IMG/VR virus record: IMGVR_UViG_3300006870_003540
Span: 1-20,927 of that record
DNA from: a virus
DNA length: 20,927 nt
Strand: one strand, 5' to 3'
A model generated the notes under the pieces. The model was not told the origin of the DNA. It saw only the letters and a program-made list of their open reading frames with translations, and made no database searches. Shown here in pieces: positions 4,076 to 11,190 of the stretch. How positions within the stretch are numbered: the stretch's first letter is position 1; every line of letters begins with the position of its first letter. The position numbers were made by a program, and so were the translations under genes.

Positions 4076-4933
4076 ATGACTCTCGAACAATTCGGCAGCG
4101 GCATTAAACCGTTTTGCCTGATACCAAATGAAATCTTGGATTCGGCACCTGACTACCACATAATTATGGTTTGGTGCTCTATCTGGCGACATGGAAATGG
4201 CAGCGACCAAGGTTGCTGGGCTTCAGTACAAAGAATCGCCAAGGTAGCCAGAATCGGAAGAGACAGAACAAGGTCAGCTATAAAATGGCTTAAAGAAAAC
4301 GGCTGGTTAATTTCACAAGAACGGCCTGGAACAACTACTAGATACCGTGCGACTTTAGAAGGTGGCGGCATAAAGAAAGAGGAAATAGAACCACTTAATT
4401 CGGCATCATCTGGACCCCTACTGGGCACCAGTACCCCTACTGGGTGTCAGGAGGGGTACCCCTACTGGGTGTCAGTAGGCGAACAAGATCCCTCTAAACA
4501 AGATCCCAACAGCCTCTTGTCTTCCGGTATTTCTGACGAAATACCTACAGACGCAGCTGCAAACGAGATTTGCAGCCAAATTCGGCAGGATCAGATTCCT
4601 GGCTTGGCTTCGCCAGAACCTGTTCGAAAGCCCCGTGCCAAAGGCAGCGAAACTTTCGAAGCCTTTTGGAAGCTGTACCTTGGAGCACCAGTCCGCGCAG
4701 CAAGCCAGTCGAAGCCAAAGGCGTGGTCGCAGTGGCAAAAAACAATCCGCACACATGCTGAGTCAGATCTCGTGAAAGCCCTGGAAACTGAGATCGCCTA
4801 TCAAAAGGCCGCTGCTGACTCGTTTGTTTCGCCTTTGCCTGATTGCTTCAGGTGGTTGCGCGATGAACGCTTCACGTCGGTCGATGATCGGCCCATCACT
4901 ACTGCCAACACAATTCCCGACGTGATCCGATGA
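4076..4933 (+). CDS. Phage replication initiator, winged-helix N-terminal domain
   Basis: The 285-residue protein has two domains joined by a linker. Residues about 12-95 form a helix-turn-helix or winged-helix unit: PNEILDS, SDQGCWASVQRIAKVARIG, RDRTRSAIKWLKENGWL, then a wing (SQERPGTTTRYRA). Residues about 190-275 (SETFEAFWKLY, KAWSQWQKTIR, LPDCFRWLRDERF) match the C-terminal part common to phage replisome organisers, which contacts helicase or its loader. Overall plan resembles lambda O: DNA-binding head, linker, partner-binding tail. The linker codons (about 113-134) carry three 18-bp direct repeats, probably the origin. It starts the rightward block, diverging from the nuclease gene; no Shine-Dalgarno is visible. 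Its stop overlaps the next start (ATGA). Confidence 0.85.
   Translation: MTLEQFGSGIKPFCLIPNEILDSAPDYHIIMVWCSIWRHGNGSDQGCWASVQRIAKVARIGRDRTRSAIKWLKENGWLISQERPGTTTRYRATLEGGGIKKEEIEPLNSASSGPLLGTSTPTGCQEGYPYWVSVGEQDPSKQDPNSLLSSGISDEIPTDAAANEICSQIRQDQIPGLASPEPVRKPRAKGSETFEAFWKLYLGAPVRAASQSKPKAWSQWQKTIRTHAESDLVKALETEIAYQKAAADSFVSPLPDCFRWLRDERFTSVDDRPITTANTIPDVIR
4414..4475 (+). repeat. Three 18-bp iterons inside the initiator gene (candidate origin)
   Basis: The unit ACCCCTACTGGGTGTCAG is perfect at 4433-4450 and 4458-4475 and changed at three positions near its end at 4414-4431. Start-to-start spacing is 19 and 25 bp, so each copy is read in a different frame and the protein is not repeated. This indicates selection on the DNA. 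A perfect 12-bp palindrome, AGGGGTACCCCT, lies at 4452-4463 and overlaps the start of the third copy. Downstream, AACAAGATCCC occurs at 4482-4492 and 4497-4507. Confidence 0.75.
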
Positions 4934-6073: not shown

Positions 6074-6079
6074 TATACT
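6074..6079 (+). promoter_or_regulatory. Promoter (-10 TATACT) of the structured RNA
   Basis: TATACT is a close match to the -10 consensus. No convincing -35 is visible 16-18 nt upstream, so it may be a type of promoter that depends on an activator. The predicted start, 6086, is exactly the first base of the GGCAG/CTGCC hairpin. Confidence 0.5.
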
Positions 6080-6085
6080 AGAAAA

Positions 6086-6171
6086 GGCAGACGCCTACCT
6101 GCCAGGCGGCTTGGGAGTAGTGACCCAAGAATCGGTTCTGTAGTTTAGTCGGGCTACAGAACTGTTCGCCT
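6086..6171 (+). ncRNA. Structured RNA of unknown class (or 5' leader of the ASCH transcript)
   Basis: In the 248-nt gap 6052-6299, an 86-nt segment folds by eye into a compact structure. A leading hairpin GGCAG/CTGCC (6086-6090 with 6099-6103) is followed by an outer stem AGGCG/CGCCT (6104-6108 with 6167-6171) that encloses two hairpins: CTTGGG/CCCAAG (6110-6115 with 6124-6129, loop AGTAGTGA) and an 11-bp stem with one G-T pair (6133-6143 with 6154-6164). The 10-nt loop of the long stem is TTTAGTCGGG. GTCGGG can pair with CCCGAC at 6193-6198, AGTCGG with CCGACT at 6207-6212, or with leader motifs of other genes. No intrinsic terminator follows within the gap, so it may continue into the ASCH gene as a cis-acting leader. 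I could not match it to a known riboswitch or tRNA. Confidence 0.6.
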
Positions 6172-6246
6172 ATAAACTCAACACTAAACCAGCCCGACAC
6201 ATAAAGCCGACTTAATAAAATACAGCCAGAATCATAAATCCTTAAT

Positions 6247-6302
6247 TTGAAATTACCTTAGTCGCATGTTATTGTGTACTTGCACAATCACTACATTTTG
6301 TG
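6247..6302 (+). promoter_or_regulatory. Promoter and start-codon hairpin of the ASCH gene
   Basis: TTGAAA (6247-6252) and TATTGT (6270-6275) are spaced by 17 nt, predicting a start near 6282. The first transcribed bases CACAA (6283-6287) pair with TTGTG (6298-6302), which contains the GTG start codon. The leader would be only about 18 nt, with its start codon held in the stem. Confidence 0.55.
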
Positions 6303-6785
6303 TTCCTCGACCTTCCGACTCACGATTCTGACATTATCAGAACTCTCTCGATTAAAACTGTTTACGCCGATCGAATAAGGGCGCAAACTAAAACAATCGA
6401 GCTTCGCACCTATTGCCCCAACATTCTTCCAGGTGGCTGGTGCGCTTTCTATGAAGGGTATCCGACACAGCACATTCGCACAGCATTTCGAGCAGGTCGA
6501 ACTTTTAAGCTCTCGCCAGATGAGGCTTGGCTAAATTTCGAACCGCATCTTGGCATTGATTTCTACGACTTTTTCCGTTACTTCCGAAAGAAGGATTTTG
6601 CTTATGGAGTTGAGATAGCAGAAGTTCGATCCTTTGAGCCGATCTCTCTCGATCATTTGAGAAAGCATCACCGATTTAACGTGCCACAAGGATGCCAGTA
6701 TCTCAAAGGGTCAATCCATAAGCGGATCAGTTCTATTATTGAATCCGACACTGCGACCCATAAGAATCCTCCATTTGACTCGTAA
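6300..6785 (+). CDS. ASCH-domain (PUA-like) protein
   Basis: The 161-residue product (GTG start at 6300) carries the ASCH signature: LSIKTVYADRIRAQTKTIEL (about 16-35) with the conserved lysine/threonine-glutamate pattern, then GGWCAFYEGYPTQHI, a strand-rich core and FAYGVEIAEVRSFEPISL (about 100-117). ASCH domains share the PUA-like RNA-binding fold and are associated with RNA metabolism; some family members hydrolyse N4-acetylcytidine. In phages they may act on modified nucleotides or RNA. This gene lies between the structured RNA and a group of small genes and has its own promoter. A later start is possible, because GTG is used and it lies within a hairpin. It may also be expressed from the promoter at 6074. 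Confidence 0.82.
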   Translation: MFLDLPTHDSDIIRTLSIKTVYADRIRAQTKTIELRTYCPNILPGGWCAFYEGYPTQHIRTAFRAGRTFKLSPDEAWLNFEPHLGIDFYDFFRYFRKKDFAYGVEIAEVRSFEPISLDHLRKHHRFNVPQGCQYLKGSIHKRISSIIESDTATHKNPPFDS

Positions 6786-6839
6786 GCAGTTCTATCCAAT
6801 ACTTTTGATGTCAGTTCACCACTGACTTCTTTACCCGAC
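6775..6839 (+). promoter_or_regulatory. Promoter, 5' hairpin and CCCGAC box before the gene at 6846
   Basis: TTGACT (6775-6780) and AATACT (6798-6803) are spaced by 17 nt; the predicted start is 6810. There a hairpin begins, GTCAGT (6810-6815) with ACTGAC (6821-6826). Directly after it lies TTCTTTACCCGAC (6827-6839), then 6 nt and the ATG. The DUF932 leader has the same order and the same 13-mer with the same 6-nt spacing. No Shine-Dalgarno is visible. Confidence 0.65.
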
Positions 6840-8339: not shown

Positions 8340-8415
8340 TTGACACACGCAAGCCGATAAATTATTATTAAAGGGTGGATGGATTCACTACCTTCCACCC
8401 TGTTCTTTACCCGAC
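8340..8415 (+). promoter_or_regulatory. Consensus promoter, 5' hairpin and CCCGAC box before the DUF932 gene
   Basis: TTGACA (8340-8345), a 17-nt spacer and TATTAT (8363-8368) form a near-perfect sigma-70 promoter. The predicted start near 8375 falls in the stem GGGTGGA (8373-8379) that pairs with TCCACCC (8394-8400); GG/CC (8381-8382 with 8391-8392) extends it across one mismatch. After 2 nt comes TTCTTTACCCGAC (8403-8415), then 6 nt and the ATG. Confidence 0.8.
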
Positions 8416-8421
8416 TTTCTC

Positions 8422-9408
8422 ATGTCTCACAATTTCACAGACGGCATCATGATGCAAGGCAACGCCGCATGGCATGGCCTTGGTCAAGTCGTAGATGGTA
8501 CACTCCCAGCCCGAGAAGCCTTCACCAGGGCTAACGCGCTTTTTGAAGTGGACAAAGCTCCGCTCTATTTCAAGAATCCGGTCACTGGCGAGATGGCTGA
8601 AGATGACCAACGTTGTGCGACTTACCGCACTGACACTGGCGACAAACTTGGCACTGTCAGTCTCGGATATGAAGTCATTCAGAACGAGCAACTCTGCCAA
8701 TTTGCTGAAATGCTCCGAGATGATGTTGAGATGGAAACCGTTGTAGTGCTCAAAGGTGGAGCCAAGATCGCCTTCTCAGCAAGAATCCTTGGCACAGACG
8801 CCGACGTTGTGAAAGGTGACACGATTCACCGCAGGCTTAACGGCTATCTCTCACACGATGGCACCACTTCATTCGGTGGAATGTTCAGCAACATCCGGAT
8901 TGTCTGTCAGAACACTCTCGGATGGGCAATGCAAGATGCTGACAAGCACGGCAAGCAGTTCAAAATCTCCCATACCAAGCTCGGTGTATCCCAGATTGAT
9001 GCGACCCTCAGATCAATTGACGTAGCCCGACAAACCTTTGCTAAGGAAGTCGAGGACTACAAGCGCATGGCCGAGACTCCAATGGACTTTGACTCTTACC
9101 GCACCTGGCTCACAAGTCTCTACAACATGCCGAGTGTCAAACAGGAGGATGGCACACTGCGTCCGGGCACCATTGAGGATTCCAAGGTCAAGTGGAACAA
9201 GCTCAGGAACGCATGGGCAGGCGGCTTTGGCACCAACATTGATGGTGTGTCCGACACTGTATGGGGTGCCTACAACGCCATCACTGAGGTGGAAACCAGT
9301 CTCAGAGACGCACCTGCCAGCAGAAATATCGCCACTGTCAATGGATACTATGTCCGGCAGATTGTGGACAAAGCAAGATCACAGGCGATGGAGCTGTGTG
9401 CTGCTTGA
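8422..9408 (+). CDS. DUF932 (TIGR03299-like) phage/plasmid protein
   Basis: The 328-residue protein fits DUF932: an N-terminal AAWHGLGQVVDG motif (about 15-26), CATYRTDTGDKLGTVSLGYE with VIQNEQLCQFAE in the middle, RLNGYLSHDGTTSFGG (about 139-154), then SNIRIVCQNTLGWAM (about 157-171), and a helical C-terminal region. The family is frequent on plasmids and phages, often near replication or anti-restriction genes; its biochemical role is not established. It is monocistronic, with a consensus promoter, a structured leader and a strong terminator, which suggests high or independently timed expression. Length is normal for the family (about 300-400 residues). Confidence 0.92.
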   Translation: MSHNFTDGIMMQGNAAWHGLGQVVDGTLPAREAFTRANALFEVDKAPLYFKNPVTGEMAEDDQRCATYRTDTGDKLGTVSLGYEVIQNEQLCQFAEMLRDDVEMETVVVLKGGAKIAFSARILGTDADVVKGDTIHRRLNGYLSHDGTTSFGGMFSNIRIVCQNTLGWAMQDADKHGKQFKISHTKLGVSQIDATLRSIDVARQTFAKEVEDYKRMAETPMDFDSYRTWLTSLYNMPSVKQEDGTLRPGTIEDSKVKWNKLRNAWAGGFGTNIDGVSDTVWGAYNAITEVETSLRDAPASRNIATVNGYYVRQIVDKARSQAMELCAA

Positions 9409-9431
9409 CCGCTTACAACCAAACATCCACA

Positions 9432-9455
9432 GGGAGCCGAGTGCTCCCTTTTTTT
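9432..9455 (+). terminator. Intrinsic terminator after the DUF932 gene
   Basis: GGGAGC (9432-9437) pairs with GCTCCC (9443-9448) over a 5-nt loop, followed by seven T (9449-9455). Confidence 0.9.
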
Positions 9456-9462
9456 GTGCTCT

Positions 9463-9705
9463 TATGCCGAACTTTGATTTTTTCCGCTGGAACTGCAGCA
9501 TGGACTGATGTGTCTGATGACAGTTCCTCAGGAAAAAACTGAAGTTCGAATCTGGGAAGCAAGGCCACCACTGGGTTCCCAATGTATCACCATGGACATC
9601 CAGATCCAATGCGTCCCAGGAGCATCATTCACCCACTAAAACACTGCAAAAAAAATCTTAATCATCGGTGCATCCGCACGGACTACAGCGGTCTTGGCTC
9701 TGCTG
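9463..9705 (+). repeat. Intergenic repeat copy R1
   Basis: This stretch is a diverged direct duplicate of 10031-10269 (R2), and its left half is an inverted duplicate of 11055-11190 (R3). Best-kept blocks against R2 are the start (GCCGA then CTTT, TTTTTTCC), CTGATGACA, AGGAAAAA, TCTCAATGTATC-like (here TCCCAATGTATC), and 9643-9700, where about 60 nt carry only a handful of differences (CTGCAAAAAAAATCTTAAT, ATCGGTGCATCC, CACGGACTACA). The right end carries the promoter of the gene at 9756. It contains no plausible gene. Confidence 0.75.
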
Positions 9706-9733
9706 TATCTTTAAAGAGTGGCAAATCAGCCAC
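9706..9733 (+). promoter_or_regulatory. Promoter -10 and 5' hairpin at the end of R1
   Basis: TATCTT (9706-9711) predicts a start at 9718, exactly where GTGGC (9718-9722) pairs with GCCAC (9729-9733). There is no good -35; instead the block conserved between R1 and R2 (ATCGGTGCATCC to GACTACA, 9664-9687) sits upstream at the same distance (42 nt) in both copies, as an activator site would. Confidence 0.5.
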
Positions 9734-9755
9734 AAATCACTACACCAACCGACAA

Positions 9756-9983
9756 ATGTCCTTCACCAACGTCGAACCTAGACTCAGACTAGAAGCCCGC
9801 ACTATGCTCACTAAGCTGGTCGGTATTCTCATTGCAGATGGCAGCATTGATGCCGCAGAAGATGCTCCCTTTAATCCGTTCTGCCCTGGGGATGACCCGA
9901 ACTTTCATGAGCTAGTCCAAGATCTAGTCGATCAAACTCTGGAATTCATGGCAGACACCGCACATGATATGGTCCAGAATTAA
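9756..9983 (+). CDS. Small acidic hypothetical protein, 75 residues
   Basis: I choose the ATG at 9756 (MSFTNVEPRLRLEARTMLTK); the open frame runs further upstream but through the repeat and promoter. The product is acidic and helical: LVGILIADGSIDAAEDAPF, then FHELVQDLVDQTLEFMADT. The helices are amphipathic with a Cys and Pro-rich turn (NPFCPGDDPN). No family is recognised. CCGAC lies 2 nt before the ATG in place of a Shine-Dalgarno. It is a single-gene unit between the R1 promoter and a terminator. Confidence 0.7.
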   Translation: MSFTNVEPRLRLEARTMLTKLVGILIADGSIDAAEDAPFNPFCPGDDPNFHELVQDLVDQTLEFMADTAHDMVQN

Positions 9984-10002
9984 CCGACTACCAATACCAC
10001 AA

Positions 10003-10028
10003 GGGTGCCGACTGGCACCCCTTTTTTT
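10003..10028 (+). terminator. Intrinsic terminator after the 75-residue gene
   Basis: GGGTGCC (10003-10009) pairs with GGCACCC (10014-10020) over a 4-nt loop, followed by C and seven T (10022-10028). Confidence 0.92.
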
Positions 10029-10030
10029 GC

Positions 10031-10269
10031 CCTATAAGCCGATCTTCACTTTTTTCCATCACCAATGCTGGATGCACTAACCTACCTGATGACACTTTTC
10101 CAGGAAAAATTCAATCTTCGGCTCTGGAAACCCTGTCGTGGCCTTGGTTCTCAATGTATCCGCTTGGACACCCTGCCTGGCACTGTCAGCATTTCATCCA
10201 CTAAAAGCTGCAAAAAAAATCTTAATTATCGGTGCATCCCCACGGACTACAACGGTTCTGGCTATGCGA
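10031..10269 (+). repeat. Intergenic repeat copy R2
   Basis: Direct, diverged copy of R1 (9463-9705) in the same position relative to a terminator upstream and a gene downstream. The block 10208-10266 is nearly identical to R1, including the eight-A run and GGTGCATCC. The left half is more diverged. No plausible gene is present. Confidence 0.75.
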
Positions 10270-10373: not shown

Positions 10374-10400
10374 CAACTGTTCACCATCCAATCCGACACA

Positions 10401-11009
10401 ATGGCAAATTCCAAGCTACCTCTCGGTCCTCATGTCACCATTGACAAGAATGGCCGACAGCTCTTCTGGCTTGACCGCAAAAGGGTCAAAGAAGATGCCT
10501 ATCTTGCCGCAGTGGATGCTTCAGCTTCCGAGCTGGAACACTCACTTACCGATTTAGTTGACTCAGCTGCCGAAACAACTGTTTCAGAGCCCGTCTTGCC
10601 CTTGTTCAAAGTCGATCTTCCTGACCCTGATGCACCGTCTGTAATGGAAGAGCTAGACGCACTTCTCCTGGAAGTACGTCGCCACTTCCAACCCAGCACA
10701 ACCGACAAGGAGCGAGCATTGCTCGCACTCTGTCAAATTCAGGATTCGGGATACTATGCAGGCTATGCCGAAGCTCTTGCAGTAACTGGATCGCCAATGG
10801 CAGCTAATGCTCTCATTGGATCGCTCCAACGTAAGGGCCTCATTCGGTATGAGTCCAAGGAAGAGGCGAGATTCAGGCTTACTTCTGATCAGGGTCGGTA
10901 CTTCATGCTCACAAGCCCCGAAGTACAAAAAGCCCGGATCATTGAGCCAACTATTGCCGGGATGCACATTGGGGATGCTCAGCTAAATGCCGAGCTAACC
11001 AACATCTGA
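10401..11009 (+). CDS. Hypothetical protein with a C-terminal winged-helix-like domain
   Basis: ATG at 10401 (MANSKLPLGPHVTIDKNGRQ) gives 202 residues; an upstream GTG at 10290 is open but lies in the leader. Residues about 1-40 form a small strand-rich segment; 40-95 are acidic and probably disordered. Residues about 105-175 look like a winged helix: KERALLALCQIQDSGYYAG, then EALAVTGSPMAANALIGSLQ and RKGLIRYESKEEARFRLTSD. Such a domain could bind DNA as a regulator. It is monocistronic, driven from the R2 promoter and closed by a terminator. Family not recognised. Confidence 0.75.
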   Translation: MANSKLPLGPHVTIDKNGRQLFWLDRKRVKEDAYLAAVDASASELEHSLTDLVDSAAETTVSEPVLPLFKVDLPDPDAPSVMEELDALLLEVRRHFQPSTTDKERALLALCQIQDSGYYAGYAEALAVTGSPMAANALIGSLQRKGLIRYESKEEARFRLTSDQGRYFMLTSPEVQKARIIEPTIAGMHIGDAQLNAELTNI

Positions 11010-11054: not shown

Positions 11055-11190
11055 CCAAATGTCCGCAATGGACCTTCCCAAGCCTTGCCACCACTAGCTT
11101 CCCAAGCTCGGTCTTCTGTTTTTTCCTAAAAAACTGTCATCGTGGACTCCAGTCCATTGCACAATTTCAGCGGAAAAAGTACAATCTCGA
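11055..11190 (-). repeat. Intergenic repeat copy R3, inverted
   Basis: Read on the plus strand, this segment resembles the reverse complement of the left half of R1 (about 9466-9590). Shared blocks in order include CTTGCCACCACT-like/GGTGGCCTTG context, AGCTTCCCA, TTTTTTCCT, ACTGTCATC, CAGTCCAT and CAGCGGAAAAA. In this copy the sequence carries the promoter for the ParB-like gene and two inverted repeats. The open frames on the same strand of R1 and R3 give similar peptides, but R2 has stops there, so I do not call them genes. Confidence 0.65.
11143..11185 (+). promoter_or_regulatory. Promoter and operator-like palindrome before the ParB-like gene
   Basis: TTGCAC (11157-11162) and TACAAT (11180-11185) are spaced by 17 nt, predicting a start near 11192, 22 nt before the ATG. 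The perfect palindrome TGGACTCCAGTCCA (11143-11156) abuts the -35 and is a plausible operator. Only a weak hairpin follows the start here, unlike the other promoters. Confidence 0.7.

Follow-up and report, generated by a model that had tools for sequence, protein, structure and literature searches.

A structured RNA at positions 6086-6171 of the window (the whole 20,927-nt stretch analysed, viral record IMGVR_UViG_3300006870_003540) is probably a phage-encoded trans-acting small RNA that pairs at the translation starts of a set of early phage genes, most likely repressing them. The hairpins and their synteny, the start-proximal boxes, and the matching of seed and box together with its changes are read directly from comparison with related phages. 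RNA and boxes have changed together in evolution, and one RNA therefore most likely controls a whole set of the virus's own genes at once. An earlier note, made from the letters of the window, had proposed a trans-acting RNA or a switch between a cis pseudoknot and trans pairing; the first reading gains support from the kept stems and from the joint change of loop and boxes, including the complete replacement of the seed in lineage E.

The capsid protein of the window shares 86.5% identity with its counterpart in cyanophage KBS-S-2A, and a sigma factor fragment has its closest matches in Synechococcus phages S-CBS1/3 and KBS-S-2A; because of these similarities, the hosts are probably marine picocyanobacteria. 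The early regions of the cultured relatives are different, and no bacterial relative of the DUF932 protein, one of the predicted targets, was found in two scans of bacterial genomes.

Fold and parts of the RNA

The fold drawn by eye in the earlier note, a 5' hairpin (HP1) followed by an outer stem enclosing two hairpins (HP2 and HP3), is borne out, with coordinates and letters correct (Table 1). The minimum free energy of 6086-6171 is -41.0 kcal/mol, compared with -26.4 ± 3.4 for dinucleotide shuffles (z -4.3; equalled by 0 of 300 shuffles), and the longer segment 6086-6212 gives a z of -2.8. HP3 displays the seed within its loop, TTTAGTCGGG, at 6144-6153. The HP2 loop, AGUAGUGA, is identical between lineages A and D and sits on a different stem in D, where the outer-stem layout also recurs (AUGGC/GCCAU in L046, UGGCA/UGCCA in L051). 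Downstream of the RNA, AACACTAAAC at 6178-6187 is identical to one conserved part of the RAGATH-13 consensus; the covariance model has no match there and the identity is probably due to chance.

Table 1. Positions of the candidate RNA, its parts, start-proximal boxes and associated genes in the window
Feature	Position	Strand	Basis or remark
Sigma-70 factor fragment, contig edge	3-653	-	Like group 2 sigma factors of Synechococcus siphoviruses
-10-like hexamer TATACT	6074-6079	+	6 nt 5' of the first base of HP1
HP1 (GGCAG..CTGCC)	6086-6103	+	Fold; in B-E, differing stem sequence at the equivalent place
Outer stem (6104-6109/6166-6171) around HP2 and HP3	6104-6171	+	Fold
HP2 (CTTGGG-AGTAGTGA-CCCAAG)	6110-6129	+	Fold
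HP3, displays the seed loop	6133-6164	+	Fold
Seed AGUCGGG	6147-6153	+	Complementary to start-proximal boxes
Gene next after the RNA in every lineage, phrog_3136	6300-6785	+	PHROG and synteny
Box CCCGAC	6834-6839	+	6 nt 5' of ATG 6846; 6 bp with own seed; orthologues in all lineages boxed
Predicted target gene, 152 aa	6846-7304	+	Without Pfam or PHROG match
Box CCCGACT	8410-8416	+	Before DUF932 ATG 8422; 7 bp with own seed; orthologues in all lineages boxed
Predicted target gene, DUF932 (PF06067)	8422-9408	+	Pfam family
Weak box CCGAC	9749-9753	+	Before ATG 9756; 5 bp; full CCCGAC in close relative G008
Weak box UCCGAC	10392-10397	+	Before ATG 10401; 5 bp plus one G-U; CCCGAC at related G008 gene

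Conservation in related phages

Relatives were collected via neighbouring proteins, and all are uncultured siphovirus-like phages. They were arranged in five lineages: A (the window and L004, with G008 and G010 also in A but without the RNA region), B (L007, L020), C (L009/L012 and L010/L011), D (L046, L047 and L048 as D1, L051 as D2) and E (L066, equal to L119). Gene order around the RNA is kept in all five, and a hairpin RNA lies directly 5' of the orthologue of gene 6300 in every member of A-E with sequence there, amounting to nine distinct sequences with folding z values of -2.2 to -5.6. MAFFT alignment of all nine RNAs was unreliable, so stems were compared through individual folds. The earlier reading had been tied to conservation of the stems in relatives, and the stems do persist across lineages with differing sequences; within lineage C, HP3 carries a double change from G-C to A-U between L009 and L010.

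The ends of the RNA are marked to differing degrees. A -10-like hexamer lies 5-6 nt 5' of HP1 in A-D (TATACT in the window, TACACT in L007 and L020, TACTAT in L009, TATTAT in L010, TATAAT in L046 and L048, TAGAAT in L051) and is less clear in E (L066), while hairpins with T runs resembling intrinsic terminators close the RNA in B, C and E, none being seen at the RNA end in A and D. The seed occupies the HP3 loop in A, B and D, and the linker before the terminator hairpin in C and E. HP2 of lineage D has CCCGAT in its 3' arm, a copy of the target box within the RNA (L046 5016-5025, L051 4983-4992), which may reflect self-regulation or chance.

Outside these lineages, the outgroups L061 and L067 retain a 6300-like gene and lack the RNA upstream of it, and the cultured capsid relatives (KBS-S-2A, S-H1, MED4-184, MED4-117) showed neither the RNA nor the box in the leaders and intergenic stretches inspected.

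Boxes at the starts of early genes

As proposed in the earlier note, AGTCGGG is complementary to the box before the DUF932 start and GTCGGG to that before the 6846 start; the CCGAC motifs it had listed before 9756 and 10401 are present on the plus strand, but their pairing amounts to just 5 bp (6 including a G-U at 10401), so that two of the four boxes in the window are full. Judged from the window alone, the seed-box pairing is no more than suggestive: the probability that a pair of random real leaders would each reach 6 bp at a single RNA site is 0.006, and the warning about chance matches given with the original proposal was right at that scale. The significance of the pairing comes from the relatives, not from the window by itself.

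Across the lineages, boxes occur in a single orientation, end 2-14 nt from the AUG (median 5), and precede non-homologous early genes having an intergenic leader. They mark 35 of 61 early first cistrons, 5 of 34 overlapping cistrons and 0 of the 80 late genes checked. Early CCCGAC sites fall within 10-nt slots before starts in G008 (4/5, p 2e-7), the corresponding counts being 4/4 in L051 (p 2e-8) and 4/5 in G001 (p 2e-7). The enrichment p values (1e-3 to 2e-8) are optimistic, since knowledge of the box guided the choice of some starts; the DUF932 and 6846 starts are backed by protein alignments. Within single genomes, 5-mers in general are weakly enriched ahead of ATG since ATG is common, and verified gene starts are needed. 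Unpaired bases are more frequent in the boxes than around them (0.70 vs 0.56).

Several further repeats were observed in these genomes. A non-coding repeat in three copies, 71-74% identical, lies at 9420-9760, 9997-10267 and 11094-11178 (minus strand) of the window; it contains CAAAAAAAATCTTAAT[C/T]ATCGGTGCATCC, has related copies at similar places in L005-L012, and is perhaps a promoter or leader, or an RNA element, before boxed genes. Three direct repeats of 20-25 nt (ACCCCTACTGGG...) in the replication-initiator gene (4414-4484) are possibly origin iterons. A scan for other start-associated motifs yielded leads only. TCTCGC stands shortly before several ATGs in L181 (11576, 11395 on the minus strand, 29663) and L182 (18687 on the minus strand, 18868, 597 and 38459, the last two on the minus strand), a start motif of the Prochlorococcus phages MED4-184 and MED4-117 and possibly a parallel system in cultured phages. 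In L099, GAGCGTGTGACGCTCAAGG(AG) repeats before starts (13707, 13958, 14366, 14701, 15318) combine an inverted repeat with a Shine-Dalgarno (SD) sequence and resemble extended start-associated sequences.

Seed and box change together

In lineages A-D, where seeds have a UCGGG core and boxes read CCCGA[C/T], seed and box mostly change in step. The seeds are AGUCGGG in A, GAGUCGGGA in B, GAUCGGGG(AAAA) in C and AAUCGGGG/ACUCGGGG in D (by sublineage, AAUCGGGG in D2 and GACUCGGGG in D1); the boxes are CCCGAC in A and B, CCCCGA[T/C] in C and CCCGATT in D, and in these lineages they lie 2-8 nt 5' of the start codons of the 6846 orthologue, the DUF932 gene and further small genes. Runs between own seed and own box reach 6-7 bp in A, 7-9 in B, 7-9 in C, 7 in D2, 5 in D1 and 9-10 in E. 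In D1 (L046/L048), the seed GACUCGGG meets the box CCCGAUUC with one central mismatch, leaving at most 5 contiguous bp. Short seed pairing with mRNAs encoded elsewhere is accordingly kept in evolution, at 6-10 bp in A, B, C, D2 and E but not in D1. Joint matches recur at the same exposed site in B, C, D2 and E with probabilities of 1e-3 to below 5e-6 each, lineages A-D not being independent. When seeds were swapped among lineages, the total was as good in 2 of 720 permutations by duplex energy and in 8 of 720 by run length. The boxes of A and B do not discriminate between A and B seeds, the B DUF932 leader pairing over 9 bp with the A seed versus 7 with its own. Since the UCGGG core is common to A-D, most of the discriminating weight rests on E, a single lineage with two boxes.

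There, the seed UGUGGUGGGUG is unrelated to those of A-D, and the leaders of both the 6846 and the DUF932 orthologues carry CCCACCAC (within CACCCACCAC and GCCCACCACA, respectively), a box that bears no relation to CCCGA; GUGGUGGGUG lies in the RNA of that phage. The two leaders pair over 10 and 9 bp at one RNA site. These leaders are the only two plus-strand sites of CCCACCAC in the 18,079-bp E contig. Of 7,190 E segments examined over both strands, and leaving aside the antisense strand of the leaders themselves, the best match to both leaders comes from those that include the RNA. None of 200,000 random pairs of real leaders equalled this match; shuffled E leaders reach such runs in ~2% each, because their C/A-rich composition favours them. 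Compensatory change between loop and leader boxes, suggested earlier as a check, is thus seen in relatives, up to a complete replacement of the seed.

Proposed mode of action and alternatives

We propose that the RNA would be transcribed from its own promoter immediately 5' of HP1, fold into hairpins and expose a seed of 6-10 nt, which would pair with the start-associated box of several separate early-region phage genes. The seed-box duplex would block initiation at leading cistrons; repression is the most likely outcome because the box, more often unpaired than the sequence around it, falls inside the 30S footprint, and the duplex would occupy the 30S binding place. Repression could then spread by translational coupling to the overlapping cistrons behind, making the RNA one switch for the early-gene set, and the rarity of boxes in overlapping later cistrons fits such control. 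From these patterns we infer that the RNA is expressed and pairs in trans inside the cell, that its effect is repression and not activation, and also the timing of control.

The opposite sign of control, with the RNA acting in trans as an activator or adaptor that sits on the box where an SD would lie and helps bring the ribosome to SD-less leaders, appears unlikely. Boxes do occupy the SD position, boxed leaders show no obvious SD, and A, B, C and D have a GGAG at the HP2 loop or in the linker; however, E has no GGAG, so short a motif is common by chance within ~95 nt, and non-boxed leaders are often SD-less too, which suggests that these phages usually initiate without an SD. Similarly doubtful is a translational gate, in which a co-evolving RNA would read the start box in place of SD recognition and its level would set early-gene translation or shut-off, with parallel seed-box codes in the lineages.

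Cis-acting explanations fare less well. The pseudoknot arm of the switch first suggested could use CCCGAC at 6193-6198 (the match is actually 8 nt, GTCGGGCT/AGCCCGAC), a site without counterpart 3' of the RNA in B-E; as a general mechanism this pairing was rejected, being confined to lineage A. That the hairpins form an attenuator or riboswitch-like leader of gene 6300, their complementarity to other leaders being incidental, is improbable: the RNA always lies directly 5' of the 6300 orthologue and HP3 is terminator-like in B, C and E, but this account leaves the boxes before other genes and their change with the seed unexplained, and a riboswitch match in Rfam is absent.

More improbable still is that the boxes are start signals read by a protein or the ribosome, with the RNA a decoy or unrelated. 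Cluster K mycobacteriophages do have start-associated repeats whose reader is not known (PMC3203893), but in every lineage the RNA studied here bears a sequence complementary to the box rather than a duplicate of it, and it keeps step with the entire box change in E. Chance complementarity in CCGA/TCGG-rich sequence could claim the window-only figure and the frequency of CCGA (6.5/kb); given the comparative data, with the match recurring at the same exposed site in B, C, D2 and E, it is unlikely to the point of being barely credible.

Comparison with known systems

An Rfam covariance-model search at the gathering score gave no match in the window, L007, L009, L046, L051 or L066, and no meaningful weak match at the RNA; a RAGATH-13 hit lying on the opposite strand and outside the RNA (E 0.29) and the hits to GlsR9 were at chance level and set aside.

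Antisense and trans-acting RNAs of phages are already known, among them c4, Sar, OOP, VpdS and PreS (PMC12197685). The closest in action would be the c4 antisense RNA of P1/P7 (Rfam C4), likewise a small structured phage RNA whose loops prevent translation by pairing in the region of a ribosome binding site (PMC12197685); c4 targets the ant mRNA within an immunity circuit, whereas the present RNA faces several separate early genes with the same box and has no Rfam match. Sar of P22 and OOP and aQ of lambda are also phage antisense RNAs on phage mRNAs (PMC12197685), but each is antisense to one gene, whereas the present RNA is encoded away from its predicted targets and would pair through a short seed. 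VpdS of VP882 and PreS of lambda share trans action through short pairing; VpdS affects phage and host mRNAs and PreS acts on host dnaN (PMC12197685). Both differ in being Hfq-dependent as described, and no conserved box before many phage genes is described for them in PMC12197685. CfrI of cyanophage S-PM2, likewise a non-coding RNA of a marine cyanophage, is by contrast a cis-antisense RNA of about 225 nt at psbA (PMC12197685). In the open-licence PMC papers searched, no system combined one phage RNA with a start box repeated in many genes of that phage and a seed-box code specific to the lineage.

The boxes themselves most resemble the Start-Associated Sequences of cluster K, which stand in one orientation a few nt from the starts of non-structural genes with intergenic gaps (PMC3203893). 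The present boxes share those limits of orientation, position and gene class, but lack the 13-bp GGGATAGGAGCCC with its SD core, being SD-less. The 2011 description left it open whether an RNA or a protein reads such boxes (PMC3203893); here, a candidate reader RNA becomes visible by co-variation. If the proposal is correct, a single small RNA governs a group of early genes of its own phage, much as a repressor governs a regulon but at the post-transcriptional level, and the lineage-specific seed-box codes offer directly testable swaps.
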